Shown here in pieces: positions 11,739-27,519 of a stretch of DNA of 32,087 bases. The notes below the pieces were generated by a model, which was not told the origin of the DNA, made no database searches, and saw only the letters and a list, made by a program, of their open reading frames with translations. Position 1 is the stretch's first letter; every line of letters begins with the position of its first letter. The position numbers and the translations under genes are program-made. The stretch is taken from contig JAKSCH010000485.1 in NCBI GenBank assembly GCA_022360695.1, positions 1 to 32,087 on the forward strand, given 5' to 3'. Source of the stretch: Gemmatimonadota bacterium. Its GTDB lineage: Bacteria > Gemmatimonadota > Gemmatimonadetes > Palauibacterales > Palauibacteraceae.

Positions 11739-12110
11739 TCAGGGTTGAGGAGTGACGAGCGCGGCGGTCAGCACCGCATCTCTGCTGGGGTCCACCGCGT
11801 CGATCAGCAGCGCCGGCGGCGCCTCGGCGTCGGGGGCGAGCGAGGGCACCAGCTCGCCCGACGGCTCGTTGGTCGCGACCGGGATCGGCTCATCGCGATC
11901 GGCCGCGCGGTAGGCCAGCGCTCCGAACACCACGAGGACGCCCGCCGCCAACGGCGCGAGCAGCGACGACCACCCGGCCGTCACGTCGAACCACGATCGA
12001 GCGCGCAGGGCGCCCGCCGCGTCCAAGATGCGCCGACGCATTCGTTGCGCGGTGACTTCGTCGGGCCGCAGCGGCTCGAGATAGCGTGGCCAGTCCGCCT
12101 TCTTCTTCAC
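11739..12110 (-). CDS. putative single-pass membrane anti-sigma factor
   Basis: GTG start overlaps the sigma gene stop by 4 bp (GTGA); ~124 codons, cytosolic basic N-terminus, one TM segment (SSLLAPLAAGVLVVFGALAYRA), short extracytoplasmic tail. Confidence 0.6.
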   Translation of the reverse strand: MKKKADWPRYLEPLRPDEVTAQRMRRRILDAAGALRARSWFDVTAGWSSLLAPLAAGVLVVFGALAYRAADRDEPIPVATNEPSGELVPSLAPDAEAPPALLIDAVDPSRDAVLTAALVTPQP

Positions 12111-12751
12111 TCGTCTTCGATCCTCTCTTCGGCGCCGCTTCCCATGATTCTGCGCAGCGCCTGTCTCCCGTGGTGGAGATTCGCCCTCGACGTCCCGACG
12201 GCGATGTCGAGGACCTCCGCGATCTCCGCGTGATCGTACCCTTCCAAATCGTACATCAGCACCGCCGTACGTTGCCGCTCCGGGAGCCGCGCCAGGGCGT
12301 CGAGCACCCGCTCCCTGGCATCGGTCCGCTCCAGCTCGCGGTGCGGATCGTCGCTCGCCGCGGCCGCGTCCGTGAGCTCGGAGTGCGTCCTCAGCGCCTC
12401 TCGGCGTCTCAGGTTCAGGCACGTGCTCCGGAGCACCCGATAGAACCAGGGGCCGAAGCGACTTCCGGGCCGTAGTTGCCCGATCCGCTCGAGCGACCGG
12501 ATGAATGCGGCCTGCACCGCATCCTCCGCATCCTGTTCCTGCCGGAGAATCGACAGCGACACCGCGTACGCCGGTTCCATGTAGCGGTTGACCAGCGTCG
12601 TGAAGCAGCCGACATCGCCGGCCTGGACGGCTTCCACCAAGCCGGGCTCGTCGGCGCCTCGGTCCGGATCTCGCGCGCCGGAGCGGGATTCGCTCGAATA
12701 CCCCGTCGGAAGCGCCTCTGTTCGCGTTTTCTGCGCCAAGGACGTTGCCAT
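12107..12751 (-). CDS. ECF RNA polymerase sigma factor
   Basis: Region 2 (FTTLVNRYMEPAYAVSLSILRQEQDAEDAVQAAFIRSLERI...FGPWFYRVLRSTCLNLRRR) and region 4 (ALARLPERQRTAVLMYDLEGYDHAEIAEVLDIAVGTSRANLHHGRQALRRIM). Confidence 0.93.
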   Translation of the reverse strand: MATSLAQKTRTEALPTGYSSESRSGARDPDRGADEPGLVEAVQAGDVGCFTTLVNRYMEPAYAVSLSILRQEQDAEDAVQAAFIRSLERIGQLRPGSRFGPWFYRVLRSTCLNLRRREALRTHSELTDAAAASDDPHRELERTDARERVLDALARLPERQRTAVLMYDLEGYDHAEIAEVLDIAVGTSRANLHHGRQALRRIMGSGAEERIEDE

Positions 12752-12911
12752 TGCAACTGGGTAACACGCCCTCCGGGCCGGCCGTTGCACCGACGCGAGG
12801 GCGATTAACGTCTACGCCGCGCCCGACGTCCTACCCTCGAGTCGACCTCGGATGCTCGGCCGGTTGCGGCTCGAAGGGGGCGCAGCGCGATGACGTCTCG
12901 TACGGTACCGA

Positions 12912-13541
12912 ATGCTAGACGAAAGATCCGCTGTCGAACAAGCGCGGCTGGGCGACGAGCGCGCCTGGCGGGAGCTTTACGATGCCCACGTCGATCTGGT
13001 TTTTCGCCTCGCCTATCGCGTGGTGAACGACCGAGATGCGGCCTTGGACGTGGTTCAGGAAGCGTACGTGAAGGCCTCGCGATCGATCGATCGGTTCCGA
13101 GGGGACTCGAGCTTTCGGAGCTGGATCGCGTCGATCACGCTCAACGAAGCGCGGTCGTGGGCTCGGAAGCGCGCCCGCGCGCGGCAGGTGGGGCTCGACA
13201 CGGTGGCGGAGCCGGCGGACGGATCGCGGGGGGCCGCCGAAGCGGTATCCGACGCGGATCTGGCGGCTCGGGCCCTGGCGTTCGTGGACACGTTGCCGGA
13301 TCAACAGCGCGAAGCGGTGTTGCTCCGGACGACGGAGGGGTTGTCGTACAAGGAGATCGCGGAGATGCTCGATACGAGCGAGGGCTCGGCACGCGTGAGC
13401 TATCACCATGGGATCACGAAGCTCCGGTCCCACATGGCGCAGCTCATGGACGCCGGCCCGACGCCGGAGAACGGCCCGGGACGCGACCGCGCGACGGCGG
13501 CCGGCGAGCCCGTCGGACCCGACGCGGCGTCGGAGCGGTAG
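12912..13541 (+). CDS. ECF RNA polymerase sigma factor
   Basis: Region 2 (WRELYDAHVDLVFRLAYRVVNDRDAALDVVQEAYVKASRSIDRFRGDSSFRSWIASITLNEARSWARKR) and region 4 (LPDQQREAVLLRTTEGLSYKEIAEMLDTSEGSARVSYHHGITKLRSHM). Confidence 0.94.
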   Translation: MLDERSAVEQARLGDERAWRELYDAHVDLVFRLAYRVVNDRDAALDVVQEAYVKASRSIDRFRGDSSFRSWIASITLNEARSWARKRARARQVGLDTVAEPADGSRGAAEAVSDADLAARALAFVDTLPDQQREAVLLRTTEGLSYKEIAEMLDTSEGSARVSYHHGITKLRSHMAQLMDAGPTPENGPGRDRATAAGEPVGPDAASER

Positions 13542-24389: not shown

Positions 24390-24416
24390 GGTGGAGTGAC
24401 CCCAAGCCCCTAGAGG
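24390..24416 (+). repeat. left arm of two-block inverted repeat flanking the sigma/anti-sigma module
   Basis: GGTGGAGTGACCCC (24390-24403) and CCCCTAGAGG (24407-24416) are reverse complements of 26401-26414 and 26370-26379. Confidence 0.6.
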
Positions 24417-24423
24417 TCGTCTT

Positions 24424-25020
24424 ATTCGCGAAGAAGAGATCCCCCGGATCGGCCCGGAAGGCCGCGTCCGGAGCGATGAACCGGACGATGCGGACATAGT
24501 CCGCGCCGTTCTCGCCGGCGACCAGGAGGCTTATGCGGTCCTCGTGCGGCGGTACAAGGACGTTTTGTACCGGTACGCCGAGCGGATGACCGGCAGGCCC
24601 GACGACGCGGCGGACGTGGTCCAGCAGGCGTTCATCAAGGGGTTTCGGAGCCTAGATCGCTGCCGCGATCCGGAGCGCGTAGGGGGCTGGCTGTTCAGGA
24701 TCGCGGTGAACCTGTGCAAAGACCAGCTCAAGGGTCGCGCGAAGCGCGAGGTGTCGTTGGATGCGGTGGGACCCATTCGCGCGACGCGGGGTCTTCCCGA
24801 GGAAGGGGCGGAACGTGCGGAGGTTCGAGAGGAGATCTACCGGGCCCTCCAGTCGCTGAGCGATGAGCAGCGCGAAGCGTTCGTGCTCAAGCACGTGGAG
24901 GGTTGGTCATACGAGGAGATGGCGGAGAAGATGAACGTCTCCGTCTCGGCGTTGAAGATGCGTGTCCACCGGGCGCGCGATCAGTTGCAGGCGTTGTTAG
25001 CGAGTTATCGCCATGAATAA
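24424..25020 (+). CDS. ECF RNA polymerase sigma factor (start codon uncertain)
   Basis: Homology begins upstream of the first canonical start (GTG 24544): DEPDDADIVRAVLAGDQEAYAVLVRRYKDVLYRYAERMTGRPDDAADVVQQAFIKGF; region 4 LSDEQREAFVLKHVEGWSYEEMAEKMNVSVSALKMRVHRARDQL. Only ATT 24424 or ATA available between the upstream in-frame TGA and the conserved region. Confidence 0.88.
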   Translation: MREEEIPRIGPEGRVRSDEPDDADIVRAVLAGDQEAYAVLVRRYKDVLYRYAERMTGRPDDAADVVQQAFIKGFRSLDRCRDPERVGGWLFRIAVNLCKDQLKGRAKREVSLDAVGPIRATRGLPEEGAERAEVREEIYRALQSLSDEQREAFVLKHVEGWSYEEMAEKMNVSVSALKMRVHRARDQLQALLASYRHE

Positions 25021-25657
25021 GGAACTGAACAGATACCTGGACGGGGAGCTCGAGCCGAACGAGCTCTCGGCCGAGCTCAAGGGCGAGGCGGAGGCGTGGG
25101 ATGCGTTCCTGACGGATGTCCGCGAGTCCGGCGCGTCCGAGGCGCCGGTCGGGCTCGAGTCGATGGTCATGGACTCGGTCCGGGCCGAGCGGAAGGCGCC
25201 GTGGTCACGGCTGATCGACTGGTGGGTGAACCCGCAGTCGCTTCGGATTCGACCGCTCATCGGCCTCGCCGCCGCGGCGGCGATCGCGACGTTCTTCCTG
25301 CTGCCGAACGACGCGGTCCTCCCGGCTGAGCCGGCCGGCGCCGCCACCGCGCTGGTCGGCGAGGAAGCGGTGTATGTCCAGTTCGTGCTGGAGGCGCCCG
25401 AGGCGCAGTCGGTCGCGGTGGCAGGCGACTTCAACGACTGGTCGCCGGACATCGGGCTCGCGGATCCGGACGGCGATGGGATCTGGGCCGGTCGGGTGAG
25501 GTTGGCTCCGGGCGTCCACAAGTACATGTTCCTCGTAGACGGGCAGCAGTGGGTGACCGACCCGCTCGCCGAGCGATACACGGAAGACGGGTTCGGCAAT
25601 CGGAACGCCGTCATCGCCATCACCGGTGGAGCCGGAGCGGGCTCGCTCGCTCCCTAG
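25013..25657 (+). CDS. putative membrane anti-sigma factor with extracytoplasmic AMPK/CBM48-like glycogen-binding (isoamylase early-set) domain
   Basis: 8-bp overlap with sigma gene; N-terminal MNKELNRYLDGELEPNE (anti-sigma-like), TM segment PLIGLAAAAAIATFFLL, then VYVQFVLEAPEAQSVAVAGDFNDWSPD...WAGRVRLAPGVHKYMFLVDGQQWVTDPLAERYTEDGFGNRNAVI. Confidence 0.85.
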   Translation: MNKELNRYLDGELEPNELSAELKGEAEAWDAFLTDVRESGASEAPVGLESMVMDSVRAERKAPWSRLIDWWVNPQSLRIRPLIGLAAAAAIATFFLLPNDAVLPAEPAGAATALVGEEAVYVQFVLEAPEAQSVAVAGDFNDWSPDIGLADPDGDGIWAGRVRLAPGVHKYMFLVDGQQWVTDPLAERYTEDGFGNRNAVIAITGGAGAGSLAP

Positions 25658-26376: not shown

Positions 26377-26414
26377 GGGCCCCGCACTCGACTGGTTCCC
26401 GGGGTCACTCCACC
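26370..26414 (-). repeat. right arm of two-block inverted repeat flanking the sigma/anti-sigma module
   Basis: CCTCTAGGGG (26370-26379) and GGGGTCACTCCACC (26401-26414), complementary to the left arm in the correct inverted order, with a 21-nt spacer versus 3 nt on the left. Confidence 0.6.
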
Positions 26415-26451: not shown

Positions 26452-27519
26452 TTGTCCGATCGAACCACGGCCGCGATCGCCGGCACGGGGAGCTTCCTGC
26501 CGGCCGATAGCATAGACAACTTCGCGCTCTACGAGATGGGCACGCTACGGGACGACTTCGATGTCGAGCAGGCCCGCGGAAGCCTCCGATCCGTCGAGGG
26601 AGCCGACGCGTTGTCCGAGCACGAAGTCTTCGACCGCTGGGCCCGGCAGGTCACCGGGATCAAGGAGCGACGGTACCTGACGCCCGAGTCCGGGCTGACG
26701 ACCGAGGACATGTGCGCGCGGGCCGGCCAGCGGGCGTTGGAGGCCGCCGGTATGGAGGCGTCCGAGCTCGACCTCATCTTCGCCGCTTCGCTGACCGGTG
26801 CCGACGAAGTGCCCAACGTCGCCTGCACCGTCGCGGAGCGGATCGGTGCCCCGCAGCTGGGCGGCTACGTGCTCAACGCGGCGTGCGCCGGGTTCGTTCA
26901 TGCCATCGGAGCCGGCTGGTCATCGATCGTGAGCGGGATGGCCGAGCGGGTCCTCGTCGTGTCGGGCGACGCGCTCACACGCGCGGTCGACTACACGGAT
27001 GTCCGCACGGCGGTCGTGTTCGGCGACGGCGCCGGCGCGGTCGTCCTCGAGCGCTCCGAGGGCGACACGGGGCTGCTCGGGCGACCGGTCATGGCCAGCG
27101 AGTTCTCACGCGCGCCGCTGTACATGGTGGGGCAGGGCTGGGAAGAGGAGGACGAGCCGTTTCCCGTCCTCCACATGCACGGCGGGCCACGGATTCTCCG
27201 AAACGCGATCACGAAGATGGCCGAGGTCGGCGAGCGGGCGCTCGAGACGGCGTCGCTCTCCTGGCGGGACGTCGACTTCGTGATTCCGCACCAGGCGAAC
27301 CTCCGGATCACGAAGGGTCTCGAGAAGCACCTCGATCTCGAGAGCGGTCACGTCATCCACAACATCGAGCGGTACGGCAACATGTCGGCATCGACGGTGG
27401 CCGTCGCCTTCGATGAAGTGGTGCGCGGGAAGCACGGTCCGGTGCCTGAGCCCGCGACCTACGTGCTGACCGCGATCGGGGGCGGGTACACCATGGCGGG
27501 AGCGGTCGTCCGAGTCTGA
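26452..27519 (+). CDS. 3-oxoacyl-ACP synthase III family protein (FabH-like thiolase fold)
   Basis: Cys-His-Asn triad contexts: LNAACAGFVHAIGAG, IPHQANLRI, IERYGNMSASTVAVA; GDGAGAVVL and C-terminal AIGGGYTMAGAVV. Extra N-terminal insertion between GTGSFLP and TGIKERRYL. Confidence 0.92.
   Translation: MSDRTTAAIAGTGSFLPADSIDNFALYEMGTLRDDFDVEQARGSLRSVEGADALSEHEVFDRWARQVTGIKERRYLTPESGLTTEDMCARAGQRALEAAGMEASELDLIFAASLTGADEVPNVACTVAERIGAPQLGGYVLNAACAGFVHAIGAGWSSIVSGMAERVLVVSGDALTRAVDYTDVRTAVVFGDGAGAVVLERSEGDTGLLGRPVMASEFSRAPLYMVGQGWEEEDEPFPVLHMHGGPRILRNAITKMAEVGERALETASLSWRDVDFVIPHQANLRITKGLEKHLDLESGHVIHNIERYGNMSASTVAVAFDEVVRGKHGPVPEPATYVLTAIGGGYTMAGAVVRV

Follow-up and report, generated by a model that had tools for sequence, protein, structure and literature searches.

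The 32,087-nt stretch of Gemmatimonadota DNA analysed here (the window) carries a cluster of three genes on the plus strand: an ECF sigma factor gene (24544–25020), a gene for a 214-residue membrane anti-sigma factor with an exported CBM48/AMPK-type domain (25013–25657), and a gene for an exported helical protein of a family that we designate P3 (25687–26376). The first was assigned from its Pfam domains, the second from Pfam, PDB, and profile matches, and the third from its signal-peptide-like N-terminus and its conservation across loci. The anti-sigma reading frame opens with ATG and overlaps the sigma gene by 8 bp. An initial annotation of this DNA had described such an overlap with an ECF sigma gene, and both the position of the sigma stop codon (25018–25020) and the Pfam assignment bear it out.

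Read from 24418, the sigma gene product matches Sigma70_r2 (E = 2.5e-17) and Sigma70_r4_2 (E = 7e-19) in Pfam, as well as the ECF superfamily model TIGR02937 (110 bits, cut-off 42.9). It contains regions 2 and 4 only and resembles ECF families (SigM, SigW, RpoE, ECF superfamily). The frame is open and conserved at the protein level from approximately 24418, upstream of the first ATG, GTG, or TTG at 24544. Because initiation at 24544 would truncate region 2, either a non-standard start codon or a sequence error is indicated in the sigma gene here. The probable start in Palauibacter relatives is a GTG, whose counterpart in the window (24499–24501) reads GTC, and the true start probably lies earlier than 24544 and is non-standard. 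Elsewhere in the window, two more ECF-sigma-like reading frames, at 12107–12790 (minus strand) and 12912–13541 (plus strand), are divergently oriented with ~120 bp between them.

The anti-sigma protein begins with a cytoplasmic segment (residues 1–59, 25013–25189) that the initial annotation had called anti-sigma-like by eye. A Pfam search with 80-residue N-termini returned no curated family for this region and none above cut-off. Using 19 aligned anti-sigma N-termini, we built a profile (A3) and compared it with 177,635 distinct PDB sequences; the best match was E. coli RseA (1or7_C, E = 0.0012) and the second was B. subtilis RsiW (5wuq_C, E = 0.0078), both outranking all other proteins, and the by-eye assignment is thereby supported. 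The NCBIfam 'anti-sigma factor' model matches the full 214-residue protein at E = 5e-5, far under its cut-off, and gives weak matches in 9 of the 19 aligned N-termini. An AlphaFold2 (AF2) model predicts helices at residues 3–9, 20–38, and 48–59. Together, these data support a class I (ASDI) anti-sigma domain with putative sigma binding and inhibition. Zinc ligands are absent from it, as in RseA and unlike RsiW; the zinc motif is missing from approximately 44% of class I anti-sigma domains, and approximately 79% of the ECFs of Gemmatimonadetes have an associated class I domain (PMC7406223). As the initial annotation proposed, a single membrane span is predicted: the only strongly hydrophobic stretch comprises residues 79–97 (25247–25303), where the best 19-residue Kyte-Doolittle window (at residue 79) scores 1.99, and the next separate window scores 1.21.

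The exported CBM48-type domain and its putative ligand site

Beyond the membrane span lies the outer domain (residues 117–204, 25361–25624). Residues 130–204 match AMPK1_CBM (PF16561, E = 1.4e-10, 41.7 bits against a cut-off of 26.8), and the outer domain also matches CBM_48 (PF02922, E = 1.2e-5, 26.0 bits against 22.4). The top PDB sequence matches of the 214-residue protein are AMPK beta-2 and SIP2, in agreement with the earlier proposal of a CBM48-like domain outside the membrane. Structure comparison, which had been suggested as a check on this proposal, gives the same answer: although the AF2 model is modest (mean pLDDT 52, with values of ~60–80 across much of the outer domain), a Foldseek search with it returns AMPK beta, SNF1, SEX4, and CBM48 enzymes from the PDB.

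From structures of the AMPK glycogen-binding domain, we take the glycogen-site contacts to be W100, K126, W133, and N150 (K126 in AMPK beta-1 numbering). Three of these are retained in the window's protein, as W143, W180, and N198; the position of the lysine is occupied by M172. The same pattern holds across 50 aligned sensor domains, in which the W100 position is Trp in all 50, the W133 position is Trp in 45 (the second Trp is missing in 5), and the N150 position is Asn in 46. Lysine is found at the K126 position in 0 of 50, where Met or Ala mostly stand instead. The initial annotation had singled out the Trp and Lys contacts, and took a loss of carbohydrate-contacting residues to count against its reading; both tryptophans and the asparagine are conserved, but the lysine is not.

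AMPK-beta/CBM48 domains bind glucan as a family. The glycogen-binding domain of AMPK-beta/SNF1, the CBM48 of GlgB, and SEX4 share a fold family with the domain described here, which retains both tryptophans and the asparagine at the ligand-site positions. It differs from AMPK-beta in the Met at the K126 position, in being exported, and in its fusion to an anti-sigma factor. A glycan is a plausible candidate ligand of the outer domain.

Conservation of the cluster and its exported partner proteins

In a survey of genome groups centred on Gemmatimonadota, AMPK1_CBM matches occur in 188 of 298 genomes of the phylum, a count that includes both CBM proteins found in the cluster (see below). A pattern-limited scan of a genome collection found 14 loci, among them loci of named Candidatus Palauibacter and of other Gemmatimonadetes MAGs. 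We read 55 loci in total (the window, these 14, and 40 from eight families), of which 50 are independent after removal of one 100-base stub and four duplicates (L025, L048, L049, L060). An ECF sigma gene lies on the same strand in 48 of the 50: in 44 it sits directly upstream of the CBM gene, and L041, L052, L058, and L059 have it at another place in the cluster. No sigma gene was found at L043 or L044, the latter of which stops at a contig edge beside the CBM gene. In-frame TGA codons in some g13 CBM genes were considered as possible recoding, which was ruled out, as these codons fall outside the coding part.

The third gene of the cluster, which the initial annotation had linked to the anti-sigma factor, is matched in 40 of the 50 independent loci. 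Its product has a signal-peptide-like N-terminus and alpha-helical amphipathicity, and Pfam, NCBIfam, and PDB searches gave no match; P3 is an undescribed family.

Outside the Palauibacter-like group, 30 of 40 loci encode a second CBM48 protein, which is exported and typically ~360–395 residues long. It carries AMPK1_CBM at its C-terminus, and amphipathicity of the beta type runs through its first ~250 residues (z reaching 5.7, though weak in some members). On the basis of this amphipathicity, the protein may be an outer-membrane barrel tipped by a CBM; an AF2 model built from three sequences reached a pLDDT of 34, too low to establish the fold. Both Trp are present in 30 of 30 of the partner CBM domains, and the Asn is mostly lost. 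Examples of this apparently unnamed family, which is widespread in Gemmatimonadota, are L012:5620–6780, L029:4483–5583, and L026:4434–5579. In 17 genomes of the window's own genus, there is one CBM locus only, consistent with the anti-sigma gene, and the CBM-tipped partner is absent.

Conservation of the system over the phylum excludes chance as its origin. We conclude that the system is real, conserved across much of Gemmatimonadota, and apparently undescribed.

A predicted promoter and its candidate regulon

Upstream of the sigma gene, on the plus strand, lies a predicted sigma-dependent promoter, GTGACC-N16-CGTCT (24396–24422), with its -35 element at 24396–24401 and its -10 element at 24418–24422, recognized from its fixed spacing across loci. 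The corresponding pattern GTGAC-N17-CGTC, which we take to have the form of an ECF promoter, occurs 5′ of the sigma gene with an exact 17-nt spacing in 18 of 48 loci. Of the 38 loci that fall outside the Palauibacter-like group, 8 show spacing 17, against 0.03 in shuffled sequences; across spacings of 10–25, the only others are isolated instances of 10 and 14, both at loci where spacing 17 is present too. The exact motif was not found upstream of sigma in the loci of more distant families. The position of this motif implies that sigma is autoregulated through a bipartite promoter, a computational prediction.

A stricter form of the pattern gave 54 matches in the 17 genus genomes, compared with 5 for a reversed control. 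Of these 54, 17 are the sigma promoter and 13 are a second shared site (in 13 of the 17 genomes). The 12 such sites that were read all lie just upstream of orthologues of a single lipoprotein gene encoding ~381 residues, whose start codon is mostly 24 nt past the motif. This lipoprotein is the best predicted sigma target beyond the operon itself, though a zero-mismatch search of the window's own assembly did not recover its site. One example, L072:1552–2697, begins 24 nt past a GTGACC-N16-CGTCT site and has no Pfam match. Further sites in the genus stand before genes for small lipoproteins and for two Plug proteins, one of them of the CarboxypepD_reg/Plug type. Across 16 genomes from farther afield, the genes that follow such sites encode more lipoproteins (one adjoining the cluster) and TonB-like proteins, names that in this second set were assigned by eye. 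Some of these promoter matches will be chance, and sites found in one genome alone may be. Taken together, the sigma promoter and the second, lipoprotein-associated site suggest autoregulation and an envelope regulon rather than glucan catabolism.

Two further features were noted around the promoter. In several other lineages, a lipoprotein-like gene lies directly 5′ of the sigma gene and has a sigma-type promoter to itself (L049 on the minus strand; L048:667 onwards; L026:1890 onwards). In the window, the 13-mer GGGGTCACTCCAC occurs at 24391–24403 and, in opposite orientation, at 26401–26413, so that the two copies bracket the sigma operon; the assembly holds exactly two copies at one mismatch or fewer. 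The copy ahead of the operon overlaps the predicted -35 element, and the one behind it precedes a 3-oxoacyl-ACP-synthase-III-like gene (26452–27519). We rejected an operator role for this element, as relatives' loci are devoid of the 13-mer except for the promoter core.

A proposed envelope-monitoring switch and its alternatives

We interpret the cluster as an autoregulated, envelope-monitoring ECF sigma/anti-sigma switch with a CBM48-type sensor, a reading to which we give about an even chance of being right and in which both sigma binding and glycan binding are putative. In the resting state, the cytoplasmic N-terminus would hold sigma at the membrane, as homology and gene coupling suggest. 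The exported CBM48-type domain would act as the sensor and be occupied by a periplasmic or cell-surface glycan; the helical exported protein would probably take part in sensing, as would, in most other lineages, the outer-membrane-like protein with the second CBM48 domain. A changed anti-sigma factor would then free sigma, through conformational change or regulated proteolysis. Free sigma would act at GTGAC-N17-CGTC promoters, a motif derived by comparison, to transcribe the operon that encodes it together with a few genes for lipoproteins and further envelope proteins.

Several observations argue for this switch: the domain assignments, the RseA/RsiW profile matches, the sigma gene in 48 of 50 loci, and the co-clustered exported proteins, together with the retention of Trp, Trp, and Asn in 50, 45, and 46 of 50 domains, the fixed-spacing promoter, the 54 pattern matches against 5, and the envelope-protein targets. 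Against it stand the missing AMPK lysine (50 of 50) and second Trp (5 of 50), the lack of a CBM-tipped partner in the window's genus, the persistence of the system without GH13 enzymes, the lack of the lipoprotein site in the window's assembly, and the share of promoter matches due to chance. A bolder version, which we put forward tentatively and expect to fail somewhat sooner than to hold, is that sigma activity is set across the periplasm by the two homologous CBM48 domains, one borne by the anti-sigma factor and the other by the tip of an outer-membrane barrel, through their recognition of a shared glycan or of one another, with the helical periplasmic protein as a third component of an undescribed, phylum-wide system.

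The main rival interpretation, which we judge rather unlikely, is that the CBM48 fold serves as a protein-protein sensor with which the anti-sigma factor follows how the exported proteins of the cluster assemble or how abundant they are, much as RseA/DegS responds to outer-membrane protein folding, with sugar binding being vestigial. The sensor domain is homologous to the C-terminal domain of the partner, whose gene belongs to the same cluster, and the helical protein is likewise co-encoded in 40 of 50 loci. Loss of the K126 equivalent throughout and of the W133 equivalent in five domains, the endurance of the system where GH13 is lacking, and the envelope character of the predicted targets all fit this interpretation as well. 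A purely protein-protein role, however, does not obviously demand an almost invariant aromatic pair and Asn at the glucan site, and the window's genus lacks the CBM-tipped partner altogether.

A further possibility, close to the one first proposed, is a catabolic switch in which binding of extracellular starch or glycogen frees sigma to transcribe glucan-use genes. We consider this distinctly improbable. Glucan binding at the family level speaks for it, as does the GH13 tally: such enzymes were found in 13 of the 20 CBM genomes sampled, compared with 5 of 20 without a CBM match, the latter group being rich in one genus and phylogenetically redundant. This association is suggestive; it is confounded by related genomes and is not obligatory. 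GH13 was not detected in the other 7 of the 20 sampled CBM genomes, four of which were read at the sigma/anti-sigma-CBM locus (G014 at L056, G027 at L047, G036 at L032, and G051 at L041), nor did the window's own assembly yield a GH13 match. The gene also persists in G089 and G299, small genomes of the genus (incomplete MAGs) with no glycogen-synthase or GH13 match. Furthermore, no GH13, sugar-transport, or sugar-use genes were found among the inspected predicted targets. The GH13-negative genomes and the lack of sugar-use targets lower the alpha-glucan-catabolism reading and leave as candidate signals a glycan of the envelope or surface, or else a partner protein; gating by alpha-glucan specifically, as in the initial annotation, is therefore not favoured. 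Least probable of all, and given little credence here, is a folded cap that senses nothing and merely shields the anti-sigma factor from proteolysis: access to site-1 cleavage does gate proteolysis-controlled anti-sigma factors, and a RIP pathway has been described (PMC12203970), but the phylum-wide conservation of the binding-site positions exceeds what a passive cap needs.

The envelope-monitoring switch that we favour has partial precedents. Like RseA and RsiW, the first PDB matches of its N-terminal profile, the anti-sigma factor has a single membrane span, is encoded beside an ECF sigma factor, to whose translation its own is probably coupled, and is associated with an autoregulated promoter and envelope targets, which here are predicted from sequence; it differs from both in the CBM48-type carbohydrate-binding fold of its outer domain. 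A second precedent is RsgI of Clostridium thermocellum, a group of membrane anti-sigma factors whose exported CBMs serve as polysaccharide sensors (PMC12203970). RsgI proteins, however, belong to Clostridia, pair with SigI rather than an ECF sigma factor, have an autocleaving periplasmic domain, and carry CBM3, CBM42, PA14, or GH10 sensors for plant polysaccharides; CBM48 is not listed among them (PMC12203970). Our search, which covered the open-access literature, found no paper on an anti-sigma factor with a glycogen-binding domain, nor one on a Gemmatimonadota anti-sigma factor and the outer membrane, and a broader query likewise gave nothing of relevance. The earlier remark that no characterised example was known stands, within that search, as far as an ECF anti-sigma factor bearing CBM48 is concerned; it does not extend to the principle of sensing through a CBM, which is known from RsgI.

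Gemmatimonadota, whose members live in soil, sediment, and sponges, is a phylum in which envelope sensing is seemingly little known. If our reading is right, a sigma switch would operate over much of this phylum, with a promoter sequence and a short target list to go with it, and which glycan, if any, a Gemmatimonadota cell monitors would become directly testable with one small soluble domain.
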